Shown piece after piece: positions 59,972 through 64,000 of a stretch of DNA of 64,000 bases. Each line of letters starts with the position of its first letter. Within the stretch, counting starts at the first letter, position 1. Below the pieces are notes generated by a model. It was not told where the DNA came from and made no database searches. It saw only the letters and a program-made list of their open reading frames with translations. Source of the stretch: Peptococcaceae bacterium 1109 (GTDB taxonomy: Bacteria > Bacillota > Limnochordia > Darwinibacteriales > Darwinibacteriaceae); the NCBI GenBank assembly GCA_001028815.1, contig LDJB01000001.1:119297-183296 (forward strand), read 5' to 3'. Both the position numbers and the translations under genes were made by a program.

Positions 59972-60214
59972 TCATAGTTGAGGCTTCAGCATGCCTTGCT
60001 GACGGAGGAGCTCTTGTTCAGCTGCGGCAATCATGCGCCTCACCATATGTCCTCCCACAGCTCCACATTCTCTCGAAGTGATATTTCCCCAATAACCAGT
60101 CTTGTACTCGGGGTTGATGCCCAGTTCTGCGGCAACTTCATATTTGAATTGGTTCAACGCCTGATAGGCTTGTGGAATTACCTGTTGATTGCTGCGGCTT
60201 GATCCAAGCGCCAT
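59972..60214 (-). CDS. Alpha/beta-type small acid-soluble spore protein
   Basis: ALNQFKYEVAAELGINPEYKTGYWGNITSRECGAVGGHMVRRMIAAAEQEL. Confidence 0.95.
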   Translation of the reverse strand: MALGSSRSNQQVIPQAYQALNQFKYEVAAELGINPEYKTGYWGNITSRECGAVGGHMVRRMIAAAEQELLRQQGMLKPQL

Positions 60215-60424: not shown

Positions 60425-61771
60425 GTGAGTTTTTTGATAGCCAAGACATTCCCCCGCGGTGGAGCCGAGATTCCGCACCGCAAGGAGGCAACGGAAGAAA
60501 AGCCAATCGTAACCCTTGCGCCCCCCGCGCAGGTGGTCATTCCTCTGCGGCAGCATATCGGCGCGCCGTGTGAGCCCGTAGTCAGTGTAGGTGACTACGT
60601 CAAGATGGGTCAGATTGTCGGTGACAGCCAGCAGTTTGTCAGTGCGCCGGTGCACGCCAGTGTTTCAGGGAAAGTGACGGCCATTGAGGAGCGGGTTCTG
60701 CTTAATGGGACTAAGTGCTTGGCCGTTGTTATCGAGAACGATGGCAAGGATGAAGAGTACACCATGCCAACCCGTCCTGTTGAAAAGATGTCGGCCGAAG
60801 CCATACGGGAAACAGTGCGCAACGCTGGCATCGTGGGCATGGGTGGGGCCGGCTTTCCAACCCATATCAAGCTCAATCCACCCAAGGCCGTGGACACAGT
60901 CATCATCAATGGTGCTGAGTGTGAGCCATACCTCACATGCGACCACCGCCTGATGGTGGAACGCACCGAAGAGCTCGTGCGCGGCACCAAGGCCATTATG
61001 AAGGCCGCAGGTGCACAGCACGGGATTATAGCTATTGAGGCAAACAAGCCCGACGCGATCGCTGCAGTGGAGGAAGCTATTCAGGACGAACAGGGGTTGT
61101 CTGTTTCGGTCCTGCAGGTGCGCTATCCCCAGGGGGCAGAAAAGCAGCTGATCAAAGCTGTGGTGAACCGGGAAGTTCCATCGGGGAAGCTCCCCGCAGA
61201 AGTGGGTTGTATCGTAAGCAACGTCCACACGGCAATATCTATCGATGCAGCGCTCACCTACGGTAAGACCTCGTATGAGCGGGTTGTTACTGTGAGTGGC
61301 GGTGCAGTTGTGGATCCACGCAATATCTTGGTGCGCATTGGCACGCCCTTAAAGGAGCTCATGGCCTTCTGCGGCGGGACATTAGGTGAACCGGCAGCCC
61401 TCGTAGGCGGCGGCCCCATGACAGGCCCTCCCGTGGAGTCGCTGGATGCCCCAGTGGTTAAGAATCTATCAGGTATCTTGGCTCTTACCCAGGAAGAAGC
61501 TGGCTTTGATGAAAACCGCCCCTGCATTCGCTGCGCCCGCTGTGTGAACGCGTGTCCCATGGGCCTTTTGCCTCTTTCGCTAGGCGATTTATCGAACCAT
61601 GACCGGTTTGCTGAAGCCGCACAAATCGGTTTAATGGACTGCATCGAATGCAGTCTGTGTTCCTTCGTCTGTCCTTCCAAGCGGGCTTTGGTTACTTGGA
61701 TTAAGAAGGGGAAAGCTGGTTGGACAGCACAGCGCCGCGCTGCTTCGGCGACTGGAGAAAAAGCGGTTTAG
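60425..61771 (+). CDS. rnfC: Rnf electron transport complex subunit C
   Basis: FPRGGAEIPHRKEATEEKPIV, GMGGAGFPTHIKL, CIRCARCVNACPMGLLP and CIECSLCSFVCPSKRALV. Confidence 0.95.
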   Translation: MSFLIAKTFPRGGAEIPHRKEATEEKPIVTLAPPAQVVIPLRQHIGAPCEPVVSVGDYVKMGQIVGDSQQFVSAPVHASVSGKVTAIEERVLLNGTKCLAVVIENDGKDEEYTMPTRPVEKMSAEAIRETVRNAGIVGMGGAGFPTHIKLNPPKAVDTVIINGAECEPYLTCDHRLMVERTEELVRGTKAIMKAAGAQHGIIAIEANKPDAIAAVEEAIQDEQGLSVSVLQVRYPQGAEKQLIKAVVNREVPSGKLPAEVGCIVSNVHTAISIDAALTYGKTSYERVVTVSGGAVVDPRNILVRIGTPLKELMAFCGGTLGEPAALVGGGPMTGPPVESLDAPVVKNLSGILALTQEEAGFDENRPCIRCARCVNACPMGLLPLSLGDLSNHDRFAEAAQIGLMDCIECSLCSFVCPSKRALVTWIKKGKAGWTAQRRAASATGEKAV

Positions 61772-61783
61772 GGAGTGATGAAC

Positions 61784-64000
61784 ATGGCAAAGAAAACAGG
61801 TCCATATTTGCGCAGTCCAGTTACAATCGAGAGCGTAATGAAGGATGTCCTCTACTCGCTCATCCCAGCCCTGGCCGCGGGAGTAATCTTCTTCGGGATC
61901 CGGGCTTTGTGGGTGGTCCTACTCAGTACCCTAACCGCAATGGTTACGGAAATGCTTTTCCTGAGGCAGCCCATTAACCCAAAGGGGCTCTTTGGCGACG
62001 GCAGCGCTGCCGTAACCGGAGTGCTGGTGGGATTGATCCTGCCCTCCACCACAGCTTGGTGGATTCCTATTGTCGGTTCCTTCTTGGCCATTGCCTTAGT
62101 GAAACTGCCCTTTGGGGGGTTGGGTCATAACATCTTCAACCCTGCCTTGGGTGCACGGGCCATCTTGCTCCTTGCCTTTACGTCCGAGATGGTTCGCTTT
62201 GTTTTGCCTTTTGATACAGTAACAGGGGCCACTCCCCTCTTGTCTATGACCAGCTTTAACTGGTCCCTAATCTGGGGTAATGTGGGGGGGAGCATCGGCG
62301 AGACATCGGTGATCGCGATTTTGCTTGGTGCTGCTTACCTGCTGTACAAAGGCCATATTGACTGGCGTGTGCCCACTGGCTACGTGGGAGCTGCGTTCCT
62401 TGCTGCCCTCCTCTGGGGACTGAATCCATGGATCACCATTTTTGGAGGCGGCTTGCTTTTTGCAGCTGTGTTTATGGCCACGGACATGGTGACCTCGCCT
62501 GTTACTCCCACCGGTCAGTTGGTTTTTGGAATCGGCTGCGGCCTCTTGACGGTGTTTATCCGCAAGTTTACGTCCTTGCCTGAGGGAGTCACTTTTGCAG
62601 TTCTGGTGATGAACGCGCTTGTTCCTCTCTTGGATCGGCTTACCGTGCCGCAAATCTTTGGGGTAGGTGTCGCCCGGGAACAGCGTTTCCAAGGAACCGC
62701 ACTTGGCGCGGCGGTTTTGGTAGTAGTGTTGGTAGTGGCCTTCGCGATTGGGGGGCCAGACCGGGCCGCGCAGCCAGTGATCAGCGGCGGGCATTATCTG
62801 CCCATTGCTGAACTTCTGGGAACCACGGACTACGAGATTGAGGATATTAATGGGACCCGTTACTATACGGTGCGCGACGGGGAAGGGAACTTGACCGGTG
62901 CAGCCTTTGTTGGTGAACAGCGAGGCTTTAACGGCAGCATTCGCTATCTTATCGCTCTAGATGACCAATATGCTGTACAGGATCTTATAATCCTAGAGCA
63001 CAAAGAGGACCCAGGCCTTGGTGCCCGCATCACTCAGCCTGCTTTCCTCCAGCAGTTTGTGGGCCTTGGCCCAGAGAGCAAATTCGAGTTTGGCACGGAT
63101 ATCGACGGCCTTTCCGGTGCGACCATCTCTTCTCGTGCTGTGACAACGGGAATCCGCCGGTCTGTGGAAGGGTTCATGAACGCCTTCTTCCCCAGCCAAG
63201 ATGCTGCAGGAGGTTGGGCTGATGGAACCTACACTGGGGAAGCAGATTCCTTCGGCGGCAAGTTGGCGGTAGAAGTGACCGTCAGCGGCGGCAAGATCAC
63301 TGCCGTGGAAGTCGTTTCCCACTCTGATACTCCAGGTATCTCCGATCCCGCCATCAACACCATTCCAGGGCAAATTGTGGCAGCAAACAGCCCCACGGTG
63401 GACGCGATCTCTGGGGCCACCTTTACTAGTGAAGGCATTATGCAAGCTGTGCAAAATGCCCTGGTTGGGGCAGAAGTAGGCGGCGCACCTGGCTGGGCTG
63501 ATGGAACCTATACTGGGGAAGCATCTTCCTTTGGCGGCAAGTTGGCGGTAGAAGTGACCGTCAGCGGCGGCAAGATCACTGCCGTGGAAGTCGTTTCCCA
63601 CTCTGATACTCCAGGTATCTCCGATCCAGCTATCAACACCATCCCCGGGCAGATTGTGGCAGCAAACAGCCCGCAGGTTGATGCCATAAGTGGTGCCACC
63701 TACACCAGCGAAGGCATCATGGCTGCGGTAGAAAACGCCCTGGCCGGTGCGATGGCAACGGCATCGCCTTCGGCAGCGCCTAAGTTCGACATTCAAGTCG
63801 CCGATGGCACATACCGGGCTGCAGCCCAGGGCCGTAACGCGCAACTGGTTGCCGAAGTAACCGTTTCTGGCGGCAAGATAGCGGGCATCGCAGTAGTAGA
63901 ACACGCTGAGACACCTGATATCGGCGGCGCAGCTATTGAAAAGCTCGTCCCCGCGATTGTCGAGGCACAGAGCCCCGTGGACGCTATCAGCGGTGCCACA
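61784..64000 (+). CDS. rnfD: RnfD-RnfG fusion protein with additional tandem FMN-binding domains, 3' truncated by window edge (absent from the ORF track)
   Basis: Open for 739 codons from ATG 61784; RnfD-like multi-TM with FDTVTGATPLLS, RnfG-like region with DGLSGATISS, then three FMN_bind-like domains each with DAISGAT. Confidence 0.93.
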   Translation, partial: MAKKTGPYLRSPVTIESVMKDVLYSLIPALAAGVIFFGIRALWVVLLSTLTAMVTEMLFLRQPINPKGLFGDGSAAVTGVLVGLILPSTTAWWIPIVGSFLAIALVKLPFGGLGHNIFNPALGARAILLLAFTSEMVRFVLPFDTVTGATPLLSMTSFNWSLIWGNVGGSIGETSVIAILLGAAYLLYKGHIDWRVPTGYVGAAFLAALLWGLNPWITIFGGGLLFAAVFMATDMVTSPVTPTGQLVFGIGCGLLTVFIRKFTSLPEGVTFAVLVMNALVPLLDRLTVPQIFGVGVAREQRFQGTALGAAVLVVVLVVAFAIGGPDRAAQPVISGGHYLPIAELLGTTDYEIEDINGTRYYTVRDGEGNLTGAAFVGEQRGFNGSIRYLIALDDQYAVQDLIILEHKEDPGLGARITQPAFLQQFVGLGPESKFEFGTDIDGLSGATISSRAVTTGIRRSVEGFMNAFFPSQDAAGGWADGTYTGEADSFGGKLAVEVTVSGGKITAVEVVSHSDTPGISDPAINTIPGQIVAANSPTVDAISGATFTSEGIMQAVQNALVGAEVGGAPGWADGTYTGEASSFGGKLAVEVTVSGGKITAVEVVSHSDTPGISDPAINTIPGQIVAANSPQVDAISGATYTSEGIMAAVENALAGAMATASPSAAPKFDIQVADGTYRAAAQGRNAQLVAEVTVSGGKIAGIAVVEHAETPDIGGAAIEKLVPAIVEAQSPVDAISGAT
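63221..63780 (+). repeat. Tandem FMN-binding domain repeats, 279-bp period, 95-bp identical block
   Basis: Blocks 63254-63348 and 63533-63627 are identical; unit starts GATGG at 63221, 63500, with a diverged third at 63803. Confidence 0.93.

Follow-up and report, generated by a model that had tools for sequence, protein, structure and literature searches.

The electron path through the ordinary Rnf complex, RnfABCDGE (A. woodii 9eri, C. tetanomorphum 7zc6), has the shape of a U: it leads from ferredoxin via RnfB, the [2Fe-2S] cluster of RnfA/E, the FMN of RnfG, the FMN of RnfD and the riboflavin of RnfD to RnfC and finally to NAD+ (PMC11889175, PMC12174285). In A. woodii the cluster is held by C25 and C113 of RnfA together with C25 and C108 of RnfE; ligand mutants lost ferredoxin-dependent NAD+ reduction completely, and reduction of the cluster was proposed to trigger Na+ movement (PMC11889175). 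Two departures from this scheme are already known: an RnfG that is multi-flavinylated, and an Nqr/Rnf-like complex of another kind that works one way (PMC8238504, PMC11334425). A further branch, Na+-NQR, was proposed in 2014 to originate from a duplicated rnf operon that had lost RnfB and whose RnfC was losing its cofactors (PMC4014512). Here, we describe a variant rnf operon that begins within a stretch of 64,000 nucleotides (called the window) from Peptococcaceae bacterium 1109 (contig LDJB01000001.1, positions 119,297 to 183,296) and continues beyond its end.

The operon comprises RnfC, an RnfD-RnfG-FMN_bind(n) fusion, an RnfE-like protein (RnfE') and an RnfA-like protein (RnfA'), separated by gaps of 12, 0 and -8 nt. 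Homologues of C, D, G, E and A are thus present in the same order as in ordinary Rnf. The first gene (60425-61771, + strand) encodes RnfC, the NADH/FMN module with two [4Fe-4S] motifs. It scored 520 bits against TIGR01945 rnfC (cut-off 246), also matched Complex1_51K and RnfC_N, and could be aligned along its length with the RnfC of 7zc6 and 9eri. Its relatives carry two CxxCxxCxxxC motifs (30/30) and, in 28 out of 30 cases, the FMN-site motif GxGGAxFP. RnfE' (195 aa) and RnfA' (176 aa) follow past the window end at L014:5939-6526 and L014:6519-7049, respectively. Downstream of RnfA', the translations read as ComEA, ComEC and other unrelated genes, no NqrF-like gene was seen in the operon, and a promoter and terminator scan 5' of RnfC gave no result.

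The fusion starts at ATG 61784 (or GTG 61775) on the + strand and, as the earlier note had stated, stays open to position 64000; it ends with a stop at L014:5938 (G000:C1:184937). Profile searches bore out the proposal that RnfD, RnfG and three extra FMN_bind domains are united in one polypeptide: NQR2_RnfD_RnfE was matched at residues 4-293 (61793-62662, E 2e-97) and FMN_bind in four stretches (E 3e-63), with no other Pfam domain in the in-window part, and both NCBIfam rnfD (254 vs 207 bits) and rnfG (122 vs 102 bits) scored above their cut-offs. In the RnfD part the FMN threonine is kept (T150, codon 62231-62233, corresponding to A. woodii T156), as are the riboflavin ligands N119 and D234 (A. 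woodii N123 and D249; roles in PMC11889175). These three residues and the RnfG threonine were invariant in an alignment of 14 fusions. A single transmembrane helix (residues 306-324, 62699-62755), which gave the strongest hydropathy peak (2.72) and was placed at residues 294-322 in an AlphaFold model, joins RnfD to RnfG, and based on this helix the FMN domains are predicted to be extracytosolic. The model is of modest confidence (mean pLDDT 66.5, pTM 0.36) and depicts the FMN domains as separate beads with low-confidence linkers next to a poor RnfD part. The fusion recurs in about 30 relatives, which makes a sequencing frameshift (considered in the earlier note) or a chimera very unlikely as its source, and no stop separates the RnfD and FMN_bind parts. 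An RnfD-RnfG fusion was also seen in a genome of the same class (G040, L067:7994-9973, -), where it is part of an otherwise ordinary operon that includes RnfB and ApbE, hence such fusions are not unique to the variant; the TxATP flavinylation motif seems to be missing from its RnfD part.

The FMN_bind array consists of the RnfG domain (62924-63166, + strand), extra domain 1 (63251-63463), extra domain 2 (63530-63742) and extra domain 3 (63839-64000), the last of which is cut by the window end. Together with T150 (DTVTGATP), their threonines T447 (DGLSGAT, codon 63122-63124), T546 (63419-63421), T639 (63698-63700) and T739 (63998-64000; DAISGAT in all three) make up the five candidate flavinylation sites counted before in the window. 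Chance occurrence of the SGAT motifs was ruled out by the curated HMM matches. Extra domains 1 and 2 match the solved multi-FMN domains 8p2b (E 5e-9) and 8p2a (E 3e-8), which differ from them in being stand-alone soluble proteins. A run of 1,410 N (L014:4298-5707) begins at the first base past the window, inside the array. Behind it the same frame continues for 77 codons with one further FMN_bind domain (PVDAYSGATMT), so that FMN_bind domains with a flavinylation motif number four in the window plus one past the N run, and the fusion has at least six candidate flavin sites. The length of the N run is a multiple of three and would leave room for about five more repeats, which by itself does not indicate that they are there. 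Over 255 nt, extra repeats 1 and 2 share 87% identity, with a period of 93 codons, and near-identity of this kind may explain why contigs of relatives often end inside the array. All data stem from draft metagenome genomes, in which FMN arrays break contigs, as the N run in the window's own array illustrates. In relatives with complete variant proteins, RnfG is followed by one to five extra FMN domains.

The second change concerns the membrane cluster. In an alignment with ordinary homologues, all four cysteine ligands of the [2Fe-2S] cluster were absent from the variant (27/27 RnfE' and 26/26 RnfA'), while the ordinary proteins carried them in 58/58 and 50/58 cases (RnfE) and in 59/59 cases at both sites (RnfA). 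In RnfE' the first cysteine is replaced by Val or Ala and the second by Gly, Ala, Asp or others; in RnfA' the first site is always Tyr or Phe and the second Ser, Thr or Gly. Both proteins score under the NCBIfam rnfE and rnfA cut-offs. They are still recognisable as members of the Rnf-Nqr family (Pfam, 127 bits for RnfE' and 50 bits for RnfA'; PDB matches to RnfE with E 1e-42 and to RnfA with E 1e-22) and are well conserved, with mean column identities of 62% and 60%, which argues against decay. One could imagine an ordinary Rnf in which RnfA' and RnfE' hold another cofactor and an unlinked RnfB-like protein supplies the electrons, and distant proteins with an RnfB-type FeS domain do exist in some relatives. 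However, the alignments of RnfE' and RnfA' contain no invariant His, Cys or Met pair that could form a replacement metal site, and the window's genome has a single RnfB-type FeS domain, located in an ordinary Rnf operon, which renders this reading very unlikely. A partial loss was observed in Nitrospirae Rnf operons with RnfB (L107, L108, L110, L112, L116, L119, L123 and L139), where the second RnfE cysteine ligand is Ala in 8/8 loci; judged by these residues, a cluster site with three cysteines is possible there.

RnfB is missing from the variant operon of the window's genome and from all complete variant operons (15 loci, and 23 loci in a second search, some of them cut). The genome also contains an ordinary operon in the order C-D-G-E-A-B-ApbE, located elsewhere on the window's contig, with separate D and G genes and all cysteines present. 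It harbors the sole ApbE of the genome, which must therefore serve both Rnf systems if the variant is flavinylated. Of what the earlier note had named to look for past position 64000, one more FMN_bind domain and the RnfE- and RnfA-like genes were indeed found, RnfB was not, and ApbE turned up in the other operon only. Most genomes with the variant likewise carry an ordinary complete Rnf operon, and in principle the ordinary RnfA, RnfE and RnfB of the same cell could join the fused subunit. In such a bifurcated Rnf, ferredoxin electrons would also enter the flavin wire, a use that has been proposed for multi-flavinylated RnfG (PMC8238504). We consider this arrangement unlikely, because a tight operon provides the variant with a C, E' and A' of its own and because E' and A' diverged along with it. 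One genome (G013) holds the variant with no ordinary RnfA, RnfE or RnfB detected, which speaks in the same direction; since ApbE was also absent and a contig may be missing, we rejected it as unambiguous evidence that the variant can do without an ordinary Rnf.

With an RnfA' profile, the variant was found in 29 out of 37 genomes of the window's order, spread over five families, and in 0 out of 36 other genomes of the class. The order members without a match mostly show C-DG fragments that end at contig ends. Among 250 genomes across the phylum, the variant was confined to members of the order; a weak, borderline match (G245) belonged to a complete, ordinary Rnf that includes RnfB. When about 85,000 species were scanned, 23 variant loci were retrieved, some of them cut, all without RnfB and without the cysteines (23/23) and all from Bacillota or Firmicutes MAGs, one of which is titled Limnochordia. 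In the RnfC tree, the 30 variant sequences (real variant rows, leaving out ordinary RnfC of other phyla that are slightly closer to the variant query) formed one clade with 100/100 support, separate from the ordinary RnfC that these genomes also encode, which identifies the variant as an old and apparently vertically kept paralogue. This distribution also bears on the idea of a functionless, decaying duplicate of the rnf operon. Loss of the cysteines and of RnfB would be expected in that case, yet the frames are intact, conservation across five families is high in a single orthologous clade, the redox motifs of C, D and G are kept and the FMN arrays are retained while varying in length; we give decay hardly any credence. 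The carriers are uncultured bacteria that probably live in digesters; a Limnochordia order named from digesters, DTU010 (PMC7382037), may be the one to which the window belongs. For one probably related organism, the passages found in PMC11844248 mention just the ordinary rnfCDGEAB.

Of the U-shaped path, every step of the first arm is missing from the variant, and every step of the second has been retained. We therefore favor, as the fairly probable reading, a paralogous half-Rnf: the NADH-side arm is kept, the ferredoxin-side arm is lost, and covalent flavins carry electrons outward. With RnfB missing and the [2Fe-2S] ligands of RnfA/E lost, electrons should enter from NADH via RnfC and not from ferredoxin. 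NADH would reduce the FMN in RnfC, and the two [4Fe-4S] clusters of RnfC would pass the electrons to the riboflavin and covalent FMN in RnfD, across the membrane. From RnfD they would reach the FMN of the RnfG domain, kept adjacent by the fusion, and from there move stepwise through the tandem covalent FMN domains to acceptors outside the cytosol. The fusion makes sense in this scheme, in which RnfG, which normally swings between RnfA/E and RnfD, would visit no cluster any more. RnfE' and RnfA' would remain as a membrane scaffold without cluster, and Na+ pumping through RnfA/E would not be possible by the published mechanism; we infer this scaffold role and the absence of redox-driven sodium pumping, as well as the direction and the final acceptor of the electrons. 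The flavin wire for Rnf-derived electrons that had been suggested before is thus upheld as regards the fusion, the array and the outward path; its electron source is revised to NADH.

The direction of flow deserves separate consideration. A chain of identical flavins is without built-in direction, as was noted for a multi-FMN protein (PMC10339131), and RnfC normally reduces NAD+. The arm might hence run inward and take up electrons from reduced flavins or humics outside the cell, or from a syntrophic partner, for delivery to NAD+ at the expense of an ion gradient. Such electron uptake would be uphill (about -184 mV to -320 mV), and the cluster of RnfA/E known for energy coupling has been lost, so we regard it as quite improbable. 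For the half-Rnf, in contrast, transfer from NADH (-320 mV, PMC11889175) to covalent FMN near the -184 mV of the studied multi-FMN protein (PMC10339131) would be downhill.

On the acceptor side, the genome encodes two small proteins with two FMN_bind domains and a signal-like N-terminus each (G000:C8:30931-31449 and G000:C2:382190-382714), homologues of which occur in most relatives. Judged by these features they are candidate mobile di-flavin carriers, and they are perhaps the acceptors of the half-Rnf. A second N run (2,880 N) was noticed in L068, a short way downstream of a di-FMN gene. The genome further encodes an exported protein (about 560 aa; G000:C4:54362-54580, L070:5995-7692, -) with an N-terminal FMN_bind domain, in which VITNATITS replaces SGAT, and two long, near-identical repeats with DVVTGATMS. 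No linked cytochrome or surface gene was found for the variant. A fumarate-reductase-type partner was not found either; PF00890 gave just short, Rossmann-type matches, by which a fumarate or urocanate reductase was ruled out as terminal acceptor. An Omp85/BamA homologue (G000:C1:45961-46875) suggests an outer membrane, which fits the outer membrane that the earlier note had put forward as a possible destination. An apparent small acid-soluble spore protein gene adjoins the operon (window 59972-60214, -), and taken together the two genes indicate that the host probably forms endospores and has an outer membrane.

Against the closest described systems, the variant can be placed as follows. It shares with RnfABCDGE the NADH, FMN, riboflavin and [4Fe-4S] determinants of C, D and G, and differs from it by the missing RnfB, the missing RnfA/E [2Fe-2S] cysteines, the fusion of D with G and the extra FMN domains. 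With the clusters of multi-flavinylated RnfG (PMC8238504), which bear out the earlier note's remark that multi-flavinylation is an established concept, it shares several FMN_bind domains in RnfG, an ApbE in the genome and proposed outside acceptors; in contrast, the main text of PMC8238504 presents bifurcation from a normal RNF, with no RnfD fusion, RnfB loss or cluster loss. An RnfG of this known type, with 492 aa and three SGAT-type motifs, was seen in an ordinary Rnf with RnfB from Tissierellia (L142). The Nqr/Rnf-like two-subunit complex resembles the variant in its proposed one-way transfer from NAD(P)H to an extracytosolic flavin via an RnfD/NqrB homologue (PMC8238504, PMC11334425). Unlike the variant, which uses RnfC as input, keeps the FMN threonine and gave no PF00175 match in Pfam, that complex has a C-terminal PF00175 NAD-binding domain and lacks the RnfD FMN threonine and RnfC, RnfE and RnfA. 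Na+-NQR is similar in its proposed origin from a duplicated rnf operon after RnfB loss (PMC4014512) and opposite in outcome, as in NQR the RnfA/E cluster arm was retained and the RnfC cofactors disappeared. Neither an NqrF input nor a cofactor-less NqrA is found in the variant operon, the NADH-side subunit of the variant being an RnfC with intact sites. In the open literature searched, we came across no description of an Rnf lacking RnfB, of RnfD-RnfG fusions or of cysteine-free RnfA/E.

On balance, we lean toward a third Rnf/Nqr machine, kept order-wide, in which a duplicated rnf copy lost RnfB and the [2Fe-2S] cluster, fused D with G, acquired a flavin wire and became an exporter of electrons from NADH to an extracytosolic acceptor. 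With two defining features of Rnf gone, RnfB and the [2Fe-2S] cysteines, the name Rnf ferredoxin:NAD+ oxidoreductase is unsuitable for the variant, and automatic annotation is likely to mislabel it as such. There is still debate about the part that the arms of Rnf and its [2Fe-2S] cluster play in pumping. A natural one-armed Rnf, kept over five families, is a ready-made test of RnfC-RnfD-RnfG alone and of the purpose that RnfA/E serve once the cluster is gone, and it mirrors the proposed origin of NQR, where the other arm was kept. If our reading is true, an ion-pumping ferredoxin:NAD+ enzyme was turned into a dedicated exporter throughout an order of uncultured bacteria that are possibly syntrophic, and would offer anaerobes a cytochrome-free route for NADH electrons to the cell exterior.
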